A stretch of 64,000 nucleotides of DNA from Dehalococcoidia bacterium. GTDB lineage: Bacteria; Chloroflexota; Dehalococcoidia; Bin125. Positions 143 through 63,081 of this stretch are shown here, in pieces; positions within the stretch are counted from its first letter, which is position 1, and each line of letters opens with the position of its first letter. The position numbers and the translations under genes were made by a program. The stretch covers positions 62,001 through 126,000 of the forward strand of contig JAJEJC010000005.1 of NCBI GenBank assembly GCA_022828105.1, in the 5' to 3' direction. The notes beneath the pieces were generated by a model. It saw nothing but the letters and a program-made list of their open reading frames with translations, was not told the origin of the DNA and did no database searches.

Positions 143-1774
143 CTATTGGGCTTGCTGGTCTTCCTGGTCTGATTCTTCCGGTTCCTCGCTCGGGATCTCG
201 TAGACGGCGGCGTCGCCGGCGTCTTCGCCGGCCTCGGTGTCGGCGAGCCATGCGCCGACGACCACCGTGTTGCCGGAAACGTCCGTCGCCCAGCCGAACT
301 CCGCGCGCTCCCCGGCCAGCACGGCGTCAACGGGACCGAACACGCCGACTTCGACCCATTCATCGTCACGCAGCTCGAATGCGTAGGCCGCGCCGCTGCG
401 GTAGGTCTGCGACTCCGGGTGGGCTCGGTGCGGCGCGCCGATCACCATCCAGTTGCCCTCGATCGCCGAGGCGTAGCCGAACCAGTCGCCCGGCTGAGCG
501 TCGGAGGCGGTCAGCTTCGAGTGGAACTCCCAGAGGTTGTCCAGCTTCCAGACGTAGACCGCGCCCATGCTCCAGAGCGGGGTGTCGTGGTCGTATCCGC
601 CGGCGACGAGCCATCGCTCGTGCAGCGCGACCTGCGAACCAAGCCGATCGAGTTCCAGTCCATCGGAGGCCAGCAGCTTGCCAGCGAAGTTCCATTCGTT
701 GTTGTAGTGGTGCCAGACGAAAACGGCGCCCGCATCCTCGGCGATCGTGTCGTCGCCCGGCGCGCCCACGACGAGCACGTTGTTGAACAGCTCGATGTCG
801 CGGCCGAACATCTGACGCTCGGTCGGCTCGGCGGGGGTCAGCACGGCCTCGGCTCGCCACAGACCCTTGTGCTGGCGGAAGACCGTGACCGAGCCCGCGC
901 CCACGCCGTTGACCCGGTCCTCCCAGGCCGAAACGGCGATGCGGTCGCCGAAGATCGCCACGCTCCAGCCGAACGACGCGCCCGTGGTCGGCACAGCGGG
1001 CAGCAGTGTGCCGGTCCGTAACCAGTCGCCGCCGATCTTCTCATAGACGTAGGCGACTCCGGCGTCCTCGACGAAGCTGCCGTCCTCGGTGAGTACGTCC
1101 TCGTAGGGGGCGCCGATGACCAGGCGGCCGGCGTCAATCGCGAGCCAGCGTCCGAACCAGCCCAGCGGATCGGCGAACGGCGGCAACAGGTATGCCGTTT
1201 CAACCCATTCGCCGTCGATCCGCTCGAAAATGAAGACGGCGCCCGTGTCCTCGCCGAGGACATCGTGGTAGGGCGCGCCGATCGCCATCACGTCGCCTTC
1301 GACCACGGCCGACCAGCCGTACTCGTCGAACGGCGCAGGCACGCTCGGCGTGAGCGACACGCCCTCGGCCAGCCACTGGCGGACCGGCGGCACCGGCGCG
1401 GACGACTCCTGTTGGGACTGGCCTGAGCTGCTTGCGTAGGGATCGTCGGCGTCGTAACCCTGCTGCCCCTGGCGCGGCGCGCTGGTCATTGACTGCGCGG
1501 CGGACGATTGATCGTCCTGCTCCTGCGGCGTGTCCTCGGCCTGGGCCGATGGATCGTCCGCTTCTTGCTGCTGCGCCGAGGGCTGCGAGTCAGTTTGCTG
1601 CGGCTGCTCGTCCTGCTGCTTGACCTCGGCGGTCGCGTCCGCTTGCGAGTCCGTGGGCTCGGCCTGGTCAGCGCTGTCGGAGCAGGCTGCCAGCACAACC
1701 GCAAGGTAGGCCGCAAGGAGTGTGATCAGGAGGGATGTCACCCAGTATCGGGACAGCGTCGGACGCAACGCCAT
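143..1774 (-). CDS. FG-GAP repeat lipoprotein, predicted seven-bladed beta-propeller
   Basis: 543 aa. The N-terminus has a hydrophobic signal segment (about residues 12-30) ending in the lipobox LAAC (Cys31), so it is predicted to be a surface lipoprotein. Residues ~32-125 are a Q/S/D-rich low-complexity linker. The rest holds seven FG-GAP-like units of about 50 residues, each with a core such as FGWSVAIFGDRIAVSAW, FGRDIELFNNVLVVGAP or FGYASAIEGNWMVIGAP. Seven units fit one closed propeller like the integrin-alpha family. Ligand and role are unknown; extracellular adhesion or scaffolding is a guess. It is a single gene, convergent with the SDR at the window edge. Confidence 0.75.
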   Translation of the reverse strand: MALRPTLSRYWVTSLLITLLAAYLAVVLAACSDSADQAEPTDSQADATAEVKQQDEQPQQTDSQPSAQQQEADDPSAQAEDTPQEQDDQSSAAQSMTSAPRQGQQGYDADDPYASSSGQSQQESSAPVPPVRQWLAEGVSLTPSVPAPFDEYGWSAVVEGDVMAIGAPYHDVLGEDTGAVFIFERIDGEWVETAYLLPPFADPLGWFGRWLAIDAGRLVIGAPYEDVLTEDGSFVEDAGVAYVYEKIGGDWLRTGTLLPAVPTTGASFGWSVAIFGDRIAVSAWEDRVNGVGAGSVTVFRQHKGLWRAEAVLTPAEPTERQMFGRDIELFNNVLVVGAPGDDTIAEDAGAVFVWHHYNNEWNFAGKLLASDGLELDRLGSQVALHERWLVAGGYDHDTPLWSMGAVYVWKLDNLWEFHSKLTASDAQPGDWFGYASAIEGNWMVIGAPHRAHPESQTYRSGAAYAFELRDDEWVEVGVFGPVDAVLAGERAEFGWATDVSGNTVVVGAWLADTEAGEDAGDAAVYEIPSEEPEESDQEDQQAQ

Positions 1775-42817: not shown

Positions 42818-45241
42818 ATGACCACTGCGCTCGAGGGACTGCGAGTCCTCGACATCTCCGAGGGCCTCGCTGCGCCATACGCAGCCAAACTGCTGGGCGA
42901 TCTCGGCGCGGACGTGATCAAGCTGGAGCCGCCCGAGGGTGACGAGGCGCGGCGGCGCGGGCCGTTCGCGGGCGCAGCGGATATCGAGGCGTCCGCCCCC
43001 TTCATCTACGCCAACACGTCCAAGCGCAGCGTCGTGGTAGACCCCTCCAATCCCAATGACCTGGGACTCCAGGCACGGCTGCTCGCCGATGCCGACATCG
43101 TCATCTCGCATGAGATCGAACCGGCGCTCGCTGCCCGGGGACTGGGATACGAGCATCTGCGAGAACAGAACCCGGGAGTGGTGCTGGTGACCGTGACCGG
43201 CTTCGGCTCCAACGGTCCCTACGCGGATTGGCAATGGAACCACCTGATCGCCGGCGCGCTGGGCGGATTCACGCACCTGTGCGGCCGCCCCGATCGCGAG
43301 CCAATCCAGATGGGCGCGACTGTGACCGAGACGCTGACCGGCGCCTACGCCGCCGTGGCGACGCTGATCGCCGTGCGCGCGGCGGGCGAGCACGGACGCG
43401 GTGACCATGTCGATGTCTCCGCCATGGAGACGGCGGTCAACGCCGCCCTGTTGCCGGTGCAGCGCTACGACTACACCGGCGCAATCGGCGTGCGCAGCGC
43501 CGATGTCGGTCCGGCGCCGTCGTTCATCCTGCCGACCGCCGACGGATACGTGGGCGCCAACGTGTTGACTCAGGCGCAGTGGGAGATGATGTGCCAGTTC
43601 TTCGGGCGGCCGGAGCTGATCGACGATCCGCTGTTCTCCGACGCGTGGTCGCGGATGGAGAACTCACGCGAACTGGCCAATGAACTGGCCGAGCAGACCC
43701 GCTCGCGCACATCGGAGGACGTCTTTCACGACGCCCAGACCTGGCGCATTCCCTTCGGCCTGATTCCCAACATGGCGGAGGTGCTCAACCTGCTGCCGCA
43801 TCGTGAGCGCGAGTTCATCTTCGAGTTCGAGCATCCCCGCGCCGGCCGCGTGCGGATGCCCGGTGTGCCCTGGATGTTCGGCGACGAGCGCCCGCACGGC
43901 CGTCGGACCCCGCTGCTGGACGAACATACCGAAGAGGTCCGCTCCTCATCCCTCTCCCCCCGCTCCGGGGGGGGTGATGCCGACGGCAGTGGGGGGCTCC
44001 CCTCCCGACCACTCGAAGGCCTCCGCGTCATCGACCTCTCGATGTTTATGTCGGGCCCGATGACGTCGCTGATCTTCGCCGACGCAGGAGCCGACGTGAT
44101 CAAGATCGAGTCGGTGCAGCGCATCGACGGTTGGCGCGCGGGTGGATCGTCGGATGACTTCTGGTGGGAGTGGGCGCCGCAGTTCAACTGGGTCAATCGC
44201 AACAAGCATGGGGTCACGCTCAATCTCAACGACCAGCGCGGCTCCGATGTCGTGCGCCACTTGGTCCGCGAGGCCGACATCCTGGTCGAAAACTACACGC
44301 CCCGGGTGATGGGCAATTTCGGCCTGAGCTACGAGCAACTGCATGAGATCAATCCCGAGCTGATCATGATCTCGATGCCCGGCTTCGGGCTGACCGGGTC
44401 GTGGTCGCACTACACCGCCTTCGCCAACACGACCGAGCAGATGTCGGGGCTGCCGCACCTGACCGGCTACGCCGATGACCAGCCGATCTTCAGCGGCACG
44501 ACCGGCGGCGACCCGCTGGCCGGGGTTATGGGCGCGCTGGCCTTGCTTGCGGCGCTGGAACGCAAGCGGCGCTTGAATGCCGACGGCAAGCCCGGCGGCT
44601 GCCACATCGACCTCTCGCAGACCGAAACCGCGACCTGCTTCACCGGCGAGGCGATCACGGCCTACTCCATCTCCGGGAACGATCCCGGACGGGTCGGCAA
44701 CTTCCACCCGCGGATCGCGCCGCATGGCACGTATCCCTGCCGCGACGACCGTTGGATCGCGATCGCCTGCGAGACCAATGCGCAGTTTGCCGACCTCGCG
44801 CGGCTGATCGGGCGCGACGACTGGCTCGAGATGGCATCCGACTTCGTCCATCGCGACGCCGCCCGCGAGGCGATCGACGCCGCCATAGCCGGCTGGACGT
44901 CGTCCCGCGACGCCGTGGAACTGATGCGCACCTTGCAGGAACTGCGCATCCCGGCAGGCGCGGTCTACACCGGACGCGACCTGCTCGAGGATCCGCACCT
45001 GCAGGCTCGCGAGTTCTTCATCACCCAACGCCACACGCATGCGGGCGACCACCGCTATCCGCTCCAGCCCTACCGCTTCCGCAACTGGTCCCGACCGGAG
45101 GCGGATCGTCCATCGCCGACCCTGGGCCGCGATACCCGCGAGGTCCTGGCTCGGTTGACGTCGTTGACGGAGGCGGAGGTCGATCGGATGGAGGCCGACG
45201 ACGTGATCGGCACGATTCCGCTGGCCGCACGCGGCGATTAG
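42818..45241 (+). CDS. tandem fusion of two CaiB/BaiF class III CoA-transferases
   Basis: 807 aa, twice the family length, with GGGAGCGGGG upstream. Domain 1 (residues ~4-377) starts LEGLRVLDISEGLAAPYAAKLLGDLGADVI-like and ends with the usual LLDEHTEEVR. Domain 2 (~398-800) starts again with PLEGLRVIDLSMFMSGPM and LIFADAGADVIKIES. The linker, residues 378-395, is encoded exactly by one copy of the 54-bp repeat. The catalytic Asp is retained in domain 2 (TTGGDPLAGVMGAL), but the matching position in domain 1 is Glu (TVTETLTGAYAAV). Domain 1 may therefore be structural or altered. The next gene is an FAH-family hydrolase. Confidence 0.9.
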   Translation: MTTALEGLRVLDISEGLAAPYAAKLLGDLGADVIKLEPPEGDEARRRGPFAGAADIEASAPFIYANTSKRSVVVDPSNPNDLGLQARLLADADIVISHEIEPALAARGLGYEHLREQNPGVVLVTVTGFGSNGPYADWQWNHLIAGALGGFTHLCGRPDREPIQMGATVTETLTGAYAAVATLIAVRAAGEHGRGDHVDVSAMETAVNAALLPVQRYDYTGAIGVRSADVGPAPSFILPTADGYVGANVLTQAQWEMMCQFFGRPELIDDPLFSDAWSRMENSRELANELAEQTRSRTSEDVFHDAQTWRIPFGLIPNMAEVLNLLPHREREFIFEFEHPRAGRVRMPGVPWMFGDERPHGRRTPLLDEHTEEVRSSSLSPRSGGGDADGSGGLPSRPLEGLRVIDLSMFMSGPMTSLIFADAGADVIKIESVQRIDGWRAGGSSDDFWWEWAPQFNWVNRNKHGVTLNLNDQRGSDVVRHLVREADILVENYTPRVMGNFGLSYEQLHEINPELIMISMPGFGLTGSWSHYTAFANTTEQMSGLPHLTGYADDQPIFSGTTGGDPLAGVMGALALLAALERKRRLNADGKPGGCHIDLSQTETATCFTGEAITAYSISGNDPGRVGNFHPRIAPHGTYPCRDDRWIAIACETNAQFADLARLIGRDDWLEMASDFVHRDAAREAIDAAIAGWTSSRDAVELMRTLQELRIPAGAVYTGRDLLEDPHLQAREFFITQRHTHAGDHRYPLQPYRFRNWSRPEADRPSPTLGRDTREVLARLTSLTEAEVDRMEADDVIGTIPLAARGD
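43949..44002 (-). repeat. 54-bp GC-rich dispersed repeat, copy B, in frame inside a CDS
   Basis: Reverse-oriented copy of the element at 72-125, matching it at 42 of 54 positions without gaps. It begins exactly on a codon boundary (codon 378 of the fused CoA-transferase) and its 54 bp supply 18 codons without a stop, reading SLSPRSGGGDADGSGGLP. Both C6-or-longer tracts and the GCC-GTC-GGC mini-hairpin are kept. Gly/Ser/Asp-rich output is well suited as a flexible linker. Confidence 0.8.
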
Positions 45242-59223: not shown

Positions 59224-60939
59224 CTACACCGAGGCCAGCACTTGACCCGTCGTCACGCCGGTCGGCTCCCCGTCGCGCATCGTGATCCCGCCGTTGACGA
59301 TCGACATGTGGTAGCCCTTGGCCTTCTGCACCAGACGGCGCTGCCCAGCGGGCAGGTCATGTTCGACCGTCGGTCGCTCGGGACCCACCGTGTCGAGGTC
59401 GAAGAGGATCAGGTCGGCCTTGTAGCCGCGGCGCAGCAGACCGCGATCGGGCAGCTCCCAAGCGGTCGCCATATCCCAGGTCAGGTACTTGATGCCCTGC
59501 TCGAGCGTGACCTCGCCCGAGTTGCGAACCCAATGCGCCAACACGTGCGTCTGCAGCGACGAGTCCATGATCTGCGACACGTGCGCGCCGCCGTCCGAGA
59601 ACGTGACCAGCGAACGCGGCTCGCGCATGATCTCGAGCACGGTGCCCTGGTTCTCGTTGGCCAGCGGCACCATGTAGAGCGTGTCGAGGTTCTGCTCAAC
59701 GCCCACGTCGATCATCGTCTTGACCGGATCTTCCTCGCGCTCGCGCGCGACCTCGCCTAGCCGACGGTTCGGCGTGCCGTCCATGTGATCGAGGATGAAC
59801 ACCCAATCCCAGTCCGACGGCTTGCGCGCCTGCGCCGGCATCACCCGCGAGAAATCCTCTTCCTCGGTGTTGGCGATCTGAACCAGCCGCTCCACGATCT
59901 CGGGATCGCTGAACTGCTTCATCTGCTCGTCCAGCGGCAGTTTGCGGATATCCCGCCACATCGAGAGCCGGTCGAACGGCATCTCCGTCCGCCATGACCA
60001 GTTCGTCGCCAGCTCGCGCGAATGCGCCTGACCAAACATCCGCCCGCCCTCGCCCGCCGCCTCCTGCGCGCGGTCGAAGAACCGCCGCCAGGTGTCCGGC
60101 GCGGCCCGGCGGCTGTGCAGCGCCGGGAAGAACATCGGCCGGCCCGACTCGATCGCCAGGTCGCGGAAGCGCCGCTCGTAGTGATTGGGATCGTCCGGGT
60201 CCTGGCCGATCGTCGGCTCGCCGCTGATCTCGACCGCGCCGCGGTTGATCTCGCCCAGCGCCAGCACGAGTTGCCTCACCTCGTCCCAACTCGCCAGTCG
60301 CGACGGCACCGGCGCGCCCTCGCGCGTCTTGTGCGCCGGCGAGCGCGTGGTCGAGAAGCCCATCCCGCCGGCCAGGACGCCTTCCTTGAGAATCTCCGCC
60401 ATCTCTGCAATCTCATCGTCCGAGGCCGGATCGGTGAAGGCGCGCTCTCGCATCACGTACGTCCGCAGCGCCGTGTGCCCCAGGTACCCGCCGTAGTTCA
60501 GGCCCTTGGGCTTGTCCTGTAGAAACTGCATGAACTCCGGGAACGTCTGCCAGGTCCAGTCGACGCCCGCCCGCTGCGCCTCCGCCGGAATGTCCTCGAC
60601 CGCCTCCAGCGTGCGCATCAGGATGTCCTGGTCGTCGGGATGACAGGGCGCCAGCGTGAAGCCGCAGTTGCCCATGATCACCGACGTCACGCCGTGATAG
60701 CAGCTCGACGTTCCGTACGGGTCCCAGGAAATCTGCGCGTCGAAGTGCGTATGACCGTCGATGAAGCCCGGCGAGACGATCAGTCCGCGAGCGTCGACCT
60801 CTTCCTTGCCCCGCTCCGGTATCCGTCCGATTGAGGCAATCCGGTCACCCTCGATGGCGATGTCCGCCTGGTATCGGGGAGCCCCGGAACCGTCCACGAT
60901 GGTCCCGCCCCGGATCACGATGTCGTAGGTCATGCTCAA
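59224..60939 (-). CDS. N-acyl-D-amino-acid deacylase/D-aminoacylase-type amidohydrolase
   Basis: 571 aa. It has the D-aminoacylase layout: the N-terminal beta barrel (YDIVIRGGTIVDGSGAPRYQ), the HxH metal site in GFIDGHTHFDAQ, the Cys-containing VIMGNCGFTLAPC, and the late VTFSDGGAHVSQ Asp. It removes acyl groups from N-acyl-D-amino acids or related amides. It is the first gene of a unit with an LLM oxidoreductase and a HAD protein. It is divergent from the hypothetical gene at 61097, with the 54-bp repeat between. Confidence 0.87.
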   Translation of the reverse strand: MSMTYDIVIRGGTIVDGSGAPRYQADIAIEGDRIASIGRIPERGKEEVDARGLIVSPGFIDGHTHFDAQISWDPYGTSSCYHGVTSVIMGNCGFTLAPCHPDDQDILMRTLEAVEDIPAEAQRAGVDWTWQTFPEFMQFLQDKPKGLNYGGYLGHTALRTYVMRERAFTDPASDDEIAEMAEILKEGVLAGGMGFSTTRSPAHKTREGAPVPSRLASWDEVRQLVLALGEINRGAVEISGEPTIGQDPDDPNHYERRFRDLAIESGRPMFFPALHSRRAAPDTWRRFFDRAQEAAGEGGRMFGQAHSRELATNWSWRTEMPFDRLSMWRDIRKLPLDEQMKQFSDPEIVERLVQIANTEEEDFSRVMPAQARKPSDWDWVFILDHMDGTPNRRLGEVAREREEDPVKTMIDVGVEQNLDTLYMVPLANENQGTVLEIMREPRSLVTFSDGGAHVSQIMDSSLQTHVLAHWVRNSGEVTLEQGIKYLTWDMATAWELPDRGLLRRGYKADLILFDLDTVGPERPTVEHDLPAGQRRLVQKAKGYHMSIVNGGITMRDGEPTGVTTGQVLASV

Positions 60940-60992: not shown

Positions 60993-61046
60993 CTTTTCTC
61001 CCCCCGCTGCGCGGTGGTAGATGCCAAAGGCTGAGGGGGGCTCCTC
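60993..61046 (-). repeat. 54-bp GC-rich dispersed repeat, copy C
   Basis: Reverse-oriented copy matching copy A at 41 of 54 positions without gaps. The main stem is degraded (ACCACC where A has CCCCCC), while the outer C6 and G6 tracts and the GCC-TTT-GGC mini-hairpin survive. It lies in the divergent upstream region of the amidohydrolase (minus) and the 141-aa ORF (plus), so a role as a simple terminator is excluded for this copy. Confidence 0.7.
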
Positions 61047-61096: not shown

Positions 61097-61522
61097 ATGC
61101 ACGCCATGGTCAACCGCTCACCGCTGATCCTGCCGCCCGGCGCGGTGCCGACCGCGCCGAGTCCCTCGCCGTCCGGTCCGCCCTTCGATCGCAACTTCTT
61201 CGAGGCCGTCTTGCCCAGCGCGATCCAGTCCTACTGCACGCAGGTCGCCTGCACGGTGCCGCTGGTCCAGCTCTTCACCGCCGACGGCGCGCGCCACTAC
61301 ATCCGAGCCATCTCCGGCGTCAGCGATCAGTGGGTCGCCCTGCACACGCAGGAGGAAGCGAACGAAGAGCCGGTCCAGGTCTTCATCCCCTACGGCACCA
61401 TCATCCGAGTCGAGATCCACCCCGACCTCAGCCCCGACCTCCGCCGCTTCGGCTTCCTCACCGACGCTATGGAACCGGCGTCGGCGGAGCTGGATGCGGT
61501 CGAGCAAGAGTGCGCCGAGTAG
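61097..61522 (+). CDS. hypothetical protein, 141 aa
   Basis: Start chosen at the ATG at 61097 (MHAMVNRS); an ATG at 61106 is nearly equal. After a Pro/Ser-rich N-terminus, a compact domain with CTQVACTVPLVQLFTADGARH, IRAISGVSDQWVALHTQ and VFIPYGTIIRVEIHP suggests a beta-barrel fold resembling an Sm/Hfq- or AbrB-like small barrel; this is uncertain. The C-terminus is acidic. No family is recognised. Confidence 0.55.
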   Translation: MHAMVNRSPLILPPGAVPTAPSPSPSGPPFDRNFFEAVLPSAIQSYCTQVACTVPLVQLFTADGARHYIRAISGVSDQWVALHTQEEANEEPVQVFIPYGTIIRVEIHPDLSPDLRRFGFLTDAMEPASAELDAVEQECAE

Positions 61523-61565
61523 TCCGGCCGGTCGCGCGCAGGCCGACCGCCGAGGACCATCGCGC

Positions 61566-62594
61566 CTAAATCGCGTTCTCCTCGTGCGGGGTGACGATGA
61601 TCTTGCAGTGCTGCTCGGGGTTGCCGAGGGTTTGGAAGGCGGCCTCGACTCCGTCGAGGCCGACCTTGCCGGTGATGATCGGCTTGGGGTCAATCACTCC
61701 GCCGGCGATGTGGTCGAGCGTCTCGGCAAACTCCTGGGGCGTGTAACCGAGCACGAACCTCAGCGACAGTTCCTTCTCGATTCCGGCCATCGGCGTGATC
61801 GTGTCGTCCTGCATGCAGACGCCGACGACGACAATCCTGCCGCCGCGTTGCGGCGCTTCACGCATGGTCATCGCAATCGTCCCGCGCACGCCGATGGCGT
61901 CGAAGATCACGACGTCGCTGCCGTCCTGGTAACCCTGCCCGCGCAGCGCCTCGACCGGCGGCGTCTCGCGCGGATCGACCACGATGTCGGCGCCCATCAC
62001 GCCGGCCAGCTCGCGCCGCGCCGGCGAGAAGTCGGAGGCGATGATCGTTCCCGCGCCCTCGTTGCGCAGGCTGGCGATGGTGGCCAGGCCGACCGGTCCG
62101 CATCCGTAGACCACGGCCGGCTCGCCGCCGCTGAACTGTCCCGCGCGCACCGCGTGCAGACCGACCGCCATCGGCTCGGTCGTGGCCGCTTCCTCCGTCG
62201 ACACATGGTCCGGCACCGGCAGGACCATGCCCGCGTCGAGCACCATGTACTCGCTGTACGCGCCGGGATAGACGTTGCTGTACGCGCCCCGGCTCGGCAC
62301 CGACGTGACCCGCGAACCGACCGGCAGCCGCTCGGGCGTGTTCGGTCCGTAGCCCACGATCTCGCAGCAGAACTCGTGGCCCATCACGATGTCATGTCCA
62401 AAGTCCGGTGCGAACTGCGCATTGCCCGACTGCGACGAGCCGCGCATCATCTCCTCGCCGTAGAGCATGAAGTGCAGGTCCGACCCGCAGATGCCGCAGG
62501 CCAGGTTCTTGACCAGCACCTCGCCTTCGGCCGGTTCCGGCTGGGCGATCTCGACCATTCGAAGTGCTCCGCTGCGTGCCGCGACTGCTCGCAT
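61566..62594 (-). CDS. zinc-type alcohol dehydrogenase superfamily (MDR) protein
   Basis: 342 aa. It has the catalytic zinc residues in LACGICGSDLHFM and GHEFCCEIVGYG, the Rossmann VYGCGPVGLATIASLRNEG, and a substrate-binding half (DPKPIITGKVGLDG). The four-Cys structural-zinc loop of classical ADHs is absent. It oxidises alcohols or reduces ketones with NAD(P). It is a single gene convergent with the 141-aa ORF and divergent from the CoA-transferase fragment. Confidence 0.9.
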   Translation of the reverse strand: MRAVAARSGALRMVEIAQPEPAEGEVLVKNLACGICGSDLHFMLYGEEMMRGSSQSGNAQFAPDFGHDIVMGHEFCCEIVGYGPNTPERLPVGSRVTSVPSRGAYSNVYPGAYSEYMVLDAGMVLPVPDHVSTEEAATTEPMAVGLHAVRAGQFSGGEPAVVYGCGPVGLATIASLRNEGAGTIIASDFSPARRELAGVMGADIVVDPRETPPVEALRGQGYQDGSDVVIFDAIGVRGTIAMTMREAPQRGGRIVVVGVCMQDDTITPMAGIEKELSLRFVLGYTPQEFAETLDHIAGGVIDPKPIITGKVGLDGVEAAFQTLGNPEQHCKIIVTPHEENAI

Positions 62595-62688
62595 TGCCGG
62601 TTCCTCTCCAGGCTCTGTGATCTGTTACTCGCACAAAGGTTAGCCGTTAACCTGAGCACAGGCCGAGCAGAAGCGGGGGTATTCGGCA

Positions 62689-63081
62689 ATGGCGGACTTC
62701 GACGCGCTGCAACGCGCCTACCGAGCCACGGACGGATGGCTGCACCTCACGATCACGACCGACGAGGAGTGGCGGCGTCTGCGCGACACGCTGGGCGAGG
62801 CCGCGCTCGCCGACCACATGTGGGACCACCACGAGCGTCACCCGGCCGACGGCGAGGCCTACCTGCCCCAGTTCCAGCTCCAGGTCGAGGACGATCCCCG
62901 CTTCGCCACGTCGGAGTCGCGGCTTGAGCACGCCGCCGAGCTATCGACGGTCATCACCGAGGCGTTGCGCAATCGCACGCAGCGGGAATGGGCCGACCTG
63001 TTCGCCGCCCGCGGCGTCCCGCATGAAGTGCGCAATCCGGCCCAGCCGTCCGCGCCGTCGGCCCGGGGAGGCGGCGCGTGA
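62689..63081 (+). CDS. free-standing CoA-transferase C-terminal-domain-like protein
   Basis: 130 aa with its own ATG and a GGGGG at -12. The sequence follows the C-terminal small domain of CaiB/BaiF enzymes: ATDGWLHLTITTDEEWRRLRD, then DDPRFATSESRLEHAAEL and NRTQREWADLFAARGVPHEV. Everything that carries the active Asp is missing. The protein ends in a Pro/Ser/Gly tail. Its stop overlaps the GTG start of the Panacea-domain gene. It could be a decayed remnant, or a diverged domain now working as the partner of the Panacea protein. Confidence 0.65.
   Translation: MADFDALQRAYRATDGWLHLTITTDEEWRRLRDTLGEAALADHMWDHHERHPADGEAYLPQFQLQVEDDPRFATSESRLEHAAELSTVITEALRNRTQREWADLFAARGVPHEVRNPAQPSAPSARGGGA

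Follow-up and report, generated by a model that had tools for sequence, protein, structure and literature searches.

We show herein that a dispersed repeat of 54 bp stands in frame in the interdomain linker of a two-domain CoA-transferase gene from a Dehalococcoidia bacterium, that the fusion of the two domains is older than the repeat, and that the same joint holds other repeats, or none, in related genomes. The reading that we favor, with a probability of about 85%, is that short stem-loop repeats spread through these genomes, that selection spares the copies lying in joints and loops of proteins, and that such copies would there be translated and turned over. The DNA analyzed (the window) is a stretch of 64,000 nucleotides, positions 62001-126000 of contig 5 (C5) in a 2.74-Mb genome (G000). 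Its close relatives, given G numbers here, are metagenome-assembled genomes (MAGs) of Dehalococcoidia/Chloroflexota, which, judging from isolate names, are of marine-sponge origin.

The gene in question (42818-45241, forward strand, as are all features of the gene below) is an open reading frame of 807 amino acids, the translation of which contains no internal stop. Pfam recognizes CoA_transf_3 (PF02515) in two stretches of the protein (E = 8.7e-186, 617.8 bits), which places it in family III of CoA-transferases and agrees with the original prediction that a complete domain is present on either side of the repeat. Domain 1 comprises residues 1-374 (42818-43939), as delimited by Pfam, alignment of orthologues, and a match to solved CoA-transferases; domain 2 comprises residues 399-807 (44012-45238; Pfam 399-773). 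The linker between them, residues 375-398 (43940-44011), is hypervariable among orthologues in a MAFFT alignment of two-domain proteins. Within it lies the repeat, hereafter repeat A, at 43949-44002. Codon 378 begins at position 43949, and the copy supplies 18 stop-free codons (SLSPRSGGGDADGSGGLP), just as had been predicted.

Repeat A has a distinctive anatomy. In the linker copy, a pyrimidine arm (CTCTCCCCCC, 43952-43961) forms the 5' arm of hairpin 1, the 3' arm of which is the first purine-rich arm (GGGGGGTGA, 43969-43977). A small hairpin, TGCC-GAC-GGC (43978-43987), separates this from a second purine-rich arm (AGTGGGGGG, 43988-43996) that is the exact mirror of the first, an architecture of the triplex type. 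The consensus of the repeat, CCCTCTCCCCCCGCTCCGCGGGGGGAGATGCCGAAGGCAGAGGGGGGCTCCCC, folds as single-stranded DNA (z = -2.9) into two hairpins, a strong one (TCTCCCCCCGC/GCGGGGGGAGA) and then a small one, TGCC-GAA-GGCA, and has no stop in any of the six frames. Its purine arms, GGGGGGAGA and AGAGGGGGG, mirror one another at 9 of 9 positions in 68 of 103 copies and at 8 of 9 in a further 30; the second loop is 10 nt long. The A-to-T changes that the linker copy carries at 43975 in one purine arm and at 43990 in the other correspond in the mirror, and its symmetry is thereby preserved; the pair could be due to chance or could be a trace of arm-to-arm copying. The loop of hairpin 1 occurs among the copies of G000 in reverse-complement forms (TCC/GGA, TTC/GAA, and TCT/AGA), as if the hairpin had been flipped.

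The repeat is dispersed in G000 (BLAST E values down to 7e-17), as the original prediction held. A search with its 28-nt core, allowing up to 3 mismatches, gave 108 matches (59 forward and 49 reverse), and a reversed-pattern control for the same core gave 0. Other genomes of the genus contain 0 to 151 copies by the same core search. In a conservation profile of 103 copies, the most common base reaches at least roughly half from -20 to +33 of the core, the hairpin loop excepted, which gives an element of 53-54 bp (CTCTCCCCCCGC...GCGGGGGGAGATGCCGAAGGCAGAGGGGGG); projected on the linker copy, these limits fall at 43949 and 44002, in agreement with the boundaries first proposed. Besides the linker copy, the 64-kb window shows two others, both diverged: one at 64-122 on the reverse strand, beside the end of gene 143-1774(-) and forming with 43952-44010 an inverted repeat (I1) of 78%, and one at 60997-61044 on the forward strand (family D13, 75%), which according to the list of open reading frames is apparently located between genes 59224-60939(-) and 61494-62927(+). 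Rfam had no match at the linker repeat. No RAYT-type transposase (Y1_Tnp, PF01797) was found in G000, a genome about 97% complete, in a search that was positive in control genomes. Around the copies of repeat A, no clear target-site duplication of the MITE kind was seen: a flanking direct match of at least 5 nt is absent in 77 of the 103 copies, a count made without a shuffled control. The repeat has presumably been mobile.

Two histories had been offered for the gene: either the repeat was inserted into a fused gene, or two neighboring CoA-transferase genes separated by the repeat became one through the loss of a stop, so that the repeat was captured as a linker. Orthologues speak for the first. 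All 14 same-genus genomes that have the gene encode the fusion, in one frame or as pieces at contig ends, and so do two genomes from other genera of the family; the orthologue of G018, at 59% identity, is fused. In a tree of the domains, with linkers removed, the earliest branches are G015, then G005/G007, then G002, and the genes of these four genomes are fused and have linkers free of repeat. Because the basal branches, and G018 as well, are fused, the fusion predates the repeat, and entry of the repeat into an already fused gene is the better supported history on the sequences at hand. Loss of a stop accords with two observations, namely that the same genomes hold tandem, unfused CoA-transferase pairs and that the repeats are mostly intergenic. 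However, every orthologue is fused, the unfused pairs (e.g., VI*MTT) contain no repeat, no relative was found in which separate CoA-transferase genes flank a repeat, and the repeat has also entered genes for valyl-tRNA synthetase (ValRS), MTHFR, and DnaE, the repeat-free orthologues of which are whole genes. A lost-stop history for the 807-aa gene is thus largely refuted, and we consider it very unlikely.

While the flanking domains are conserved, the linker differs from one orthologue to the next. One to three tandem, in-frame copies of repeat A are found in the linkers of G000, G004, G010, G011, and G013. A second repeat, B, which is the TM-ECO triplex motif in antisense orientation, is found in those of G008, G009, and G014, and a third palindrome (TTCCCGC...GCGGGAA) in those of G003 and G006. 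A pattern search shows that the third palindrome is itself dispersed: 14 of 15 genomes have between 2 and 38 sites each. Low scores against A and B had suggested that G003 and G006 have repeat-free linkers, an assignment rejected once this palindrome was recognized. Fused relatives with an unrelated linker, which the original prediction had named as a ground for refutation, therefore do exist. They count against loss of a stop and leave the claim of a coding repeat intact, because several of these linkers are other dispersed repeats. Genome G009 is a close relative of G000 (88% identity), yet its linker contains B, and that of G000 contains A; repeat B occurs 85 times in G009 and twice in G000, and repeat A 23 times and 108 times, respectively. 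At this locus, the repeat in the linker is in both cases the one that abounds in the genome, although a sample of two does not allow a test.

An artefact of assembly, or a frameshift error at a G-rich repeat that is hard to sequence, is extremely improbable. Some contigs do end at the linker, and the orthologue of G012 is split there. Nevertheless, an identical in-frame layout recurs in MAGs of several independent projects, every orthologous linker is a multiple of three in length, and domain 2 remains in frame. With tandem copies, linkers range from 24 to 52 residues. That of G000 has 24 residues, as do repeat-free orthologues, and since it is no longer than these, the event looks like an insertion accompanied by loss of old sequence, or a replacement, rather than a clean insertion. 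Among those orthologues of the repeat-bearing group that were compared, differences at four-fold sites amount to 0.30-0.44. The copies of G004 and G011 are identical to the consensus at 53 of 53 and 52 of 53 positions, respectively, and four-fold sites differ by 30% between these two genes, which hints at recent arrival or homogenization in those cases.

The same junction has been filled repeatedly in paralogous genes. A survey with a score cut-off of >40 against A or B covered 106 linkers, from CoA-transferases with two domains or from adjacent pairs; 29 passed, compared with 0 of 561 domain segments of the same length from the same genes (Fisher P = 2e-25, a value that overstates the case, as related genes are not independent). 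Six of about ten fused paralogous families have repeat-bearing members at this junction. The repeat is in phase 1 in family I, in phases 0 and 1 in family II, in phase 0 in family III (plus one antisense copy), in phase 1 in family IV (plus one B), and, weakly, in phase 2 in family V; in the sixth family (G000, C5:170988) it is antisense. Family IV holds an additional, diverged copy of repeat A in G000. In that genome, four of about ten linkers have a core match, against 0.03 expected from uniform placement. Sense copies of repeat A predominate in most of the repeat-bearing families, as would be the case had the two-domain ancestor of the families received one insertion long ago and passed it on by duplication. 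The phases and orientation differ, though (1 in family I, 0 in III, 2 in V, and antisense in the sixth), the repeat is absent from the basal members in families I and III, and closely related orthologues may differ in having A or B, and inheritance among paralogues is accordingly highly improbable.

Repeat A is also found inside other genes of G000. The gene context of 103 of the 108 copies was classified by a simple codon model and inspection, with Pfam for the enzymes; a wider test was used, as a strict 50-codon test misses two intragenic copies. Twelve copies are intragenic, 11 of them in the sense orientation (two-sided P = 0.006). A thirteenth candidate, C4:248046, was rejected by eye, as it lies upstream of a probable start codon. 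None of the 11 sense copies is read in the third, Cys/Arg-rich frame that gives RCRRQRG (P = 0.012), an absence expected of a filter imposed by selection on translated protein. Most intragenic copies are in conserved enzymes, for most of which Pfam confirmed the identity. In ValRS, the repeat lies between the tRNA-synt_1 and Anticodon_1 domains, and in an S9 peptidase between the propeller repeats and Peptidase_S9; CopCD likewise has an interdomain copy. In MTHFR, DnaE, and a DUF255 protein, it lies within loops. A phage-terminase-like gene (C4:327255, Pfam Terminase_3) has two repeat-derived segments in frame, and the repeat is also found in a putative vWA-type protein. The in-frame copies in ValRS, MTHFR, DnaE, CopCD, the DUF255 protein, and the S9 peptidase strengthen the original prediction that an element of intergenic type codes for a Gly/Ser/Asp linker.

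Three of these genes show empty and filled sites side by side among orthologues. At the ValRS junction (C1:129162 in G000), repeat A is present in G000, G001 (a variant), G004, G006 (twice), G011, and G013. In G003, G007, G008, G010, and G014, and as a remnant in G012, the joint contains a different hairpin element, a candidate repeat known here from ValRS joints, with the peptide EGPLSRSATAPPEGE (SATAPPEGE or similar); G002, G005, and G009 have neither. The MTHFR loop has 9 residues in nine orthologues and 22 in G000 and G010, where it contains the repeat. The DnaE site (C5:431811 in G000) has 13 residues when empty, as in several relatives, 26 in G009 with one copy, 43 in G004 with two, 54 in G000 with three in tandem and in frame, and 96 in G011. 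The net gain of 13 codons in MTHFR and in single-copy DnaE is less than a whole element, so arrival of the repeat was accompanied by partial loss of the old sequence, through either insertion and deletion or replacement.

These observations could also be taken to mean that the repeats are kept because they are useful, for example as a flexible linker of tunable length, or by forming, in mRNA or DNA, a structure at which translation between domains is slowed. Their concentration at the domain junctions of multidomain proteins, their preferred strand and frames, the linkers of 24 to 52 residues built by tandem copies, and the near-perfect consensus identity in G004 and G011 in spite of the divergence at four-fold sites all fit such a role. 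Yet orthologues that are repeat-free or have unrelated repeats are equally intact, and the bias in location, strand, and frame is explained by tolerance alone. Retention for a benefit is consequently unlikely, and the inserts appear to be nearly neutral for the enzymes.

Our preferred reading, of spread followed by selective sparing, would run as follows. Repeat A is a short, high-copy, stem-loop element of the triplex type that would have amplified across the Dehalococcoidia genome. Because its consensus is stop-free in six frames, a copy whose net addition to a gene is divisible by three would be translated. Most copies would persist between genes, and those that land within structured domains would be purged by selection; intragenic copies would persist in interdomain linkers and surface loops, in a tolerated strand and frame. 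Once there, the element would undergo tandem duplication, degenerate, drop out, or give way to a repeat of another family, and owing to these events the linker would evolve fast between conserved domains. For the 807-aa gene, the CoA-transferase fusion came first and the repeat became its linker later. A bolder proposal, which we regard as tentative and somewhat doubtful, is that interdomain joints of enzymes in this genus act as standing "docks" into which the active triplex-forming repeat of a lineage is written, where it expands and contracts so that repeat turnover, and not point mutation, shapes the length and composition of linkers, perhaps aiding folding or translation.

In-frame palindromic repeats are already known from Rickettsia and some genomes rich in repetitive extragenic palindromes (REPs). 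The Rickettsia palindromic elements (RPE-1 and relatives; Ogata, Claverie) are dispersed, stop-free elements of 105-150 bp, specific to Rickettsia, that occur between genes and in frame in conserved genes, where the extra peptide is tolerated (PMC2229807, PMC10969869). The likeness drawn at the outset is apt. Repeat A is in frame in several conserved genes, further ones included, with empty sites in the CoA-transferase, ValRS, MTHFR, and DnaE, and the insert is predicted to be translated. At 53-54 bp, however, repeat A is set apart by length from the RPEs as described; in contrast to these, it is G/C-rich and of the triplex type, and orthologous joints are refilled by different repeat families. 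According to the accessible part of another report, small REPs tagged with GTAG or CGTC decorate open reading frames in many genomes, tRNA synthetase and DNA repair genes among them, and two Xanthomonas species have them at nearly the same position in recB (PMC3733652); repeated filling of interdomain linkers in a paralogous family is not among the cases in that part. Repeat A has no conserved end tetranucleotide of this kind (GTAG in 1-2, CTAC in 5-9, and CGTC in 7-8 of 103 copies); the commonest, GACG near the 3' end, is found in 18 of 103, and the consensus has none of these tags. Nor does it qualify as a RAYT-mobilized REP, given that PF01797 is missing from G000. Its way of working appears closest to that of the RPEs and REP-decorated reading frames, and it is neither by length, end tags, or transposase.

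The intrastrand triplex motif TM-ECO is always intergenic in Escherichia coli MG1655 (Holder et al. 2015; PMC4666352). Repeat B, on the opposite strand, fits its pattern, CCCTCNCCC-N3-GGGNGAGGG-N3-GGGNGAGGG, and is here moved into coding sequence. Repeat A shares the arm order of TM-ECO, an intrastrand triplex of the purine motif (a pyrimidine arm, a complementary purine arm, and a mirror purine arm). With a second loop of 10 nt, it does not fit the strict pattern, in which the arms are 9 nt and the second loop is 3 nt. Within the open-access literature, a triplex-type element that would serve as a protein linker, in Chloroflexota and with the same joints filled by different families, appears to be new. 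"Junk" DNA from several unrelated families of short, hairpin-forming repeats is apparently translated as protein linker here. With 15 related genomes, fused paralogues in six families, and a number of orthologous enzymes in which a given joint is empty, filled by A, filled by another repeat, or filled with tandem copies, nature has run a replicated experiment, in which one can ask if the inserts bring a benefit or are neutral, by what route they arrive when no transposase is known, and if triplex-forming DNA drives linker evolution.

The two halves of the 807-aa protein best match different subunits of the two-subunit benzylsuccinate CoA-transferase (PDB 9fn0), residues 8-249 matching 9fn0_A and residues 396-796 matching 9fn0_B; by comparison, the halves would here form a single chain through a repeat-derived linker. 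Structure prediction of the protein, with 11 close homologues, was poor (mean pLDDT 51.8, pTM 0.36), and the model is uninformative on the flexibility of the linker because residues 315-396 are below 50 and many others are likewise. Judging from the sequence, domain 1 seemingly has Glu171 where domain 2 has the conserved Asp565, and for that reason domain 1 may be non-catalytic. Just past the end of the window (C5:126053-128458), there is another two-domain CoA-transferase gene, with a TAG stop at codon 295, which is either a pseudogene or an assembly error.
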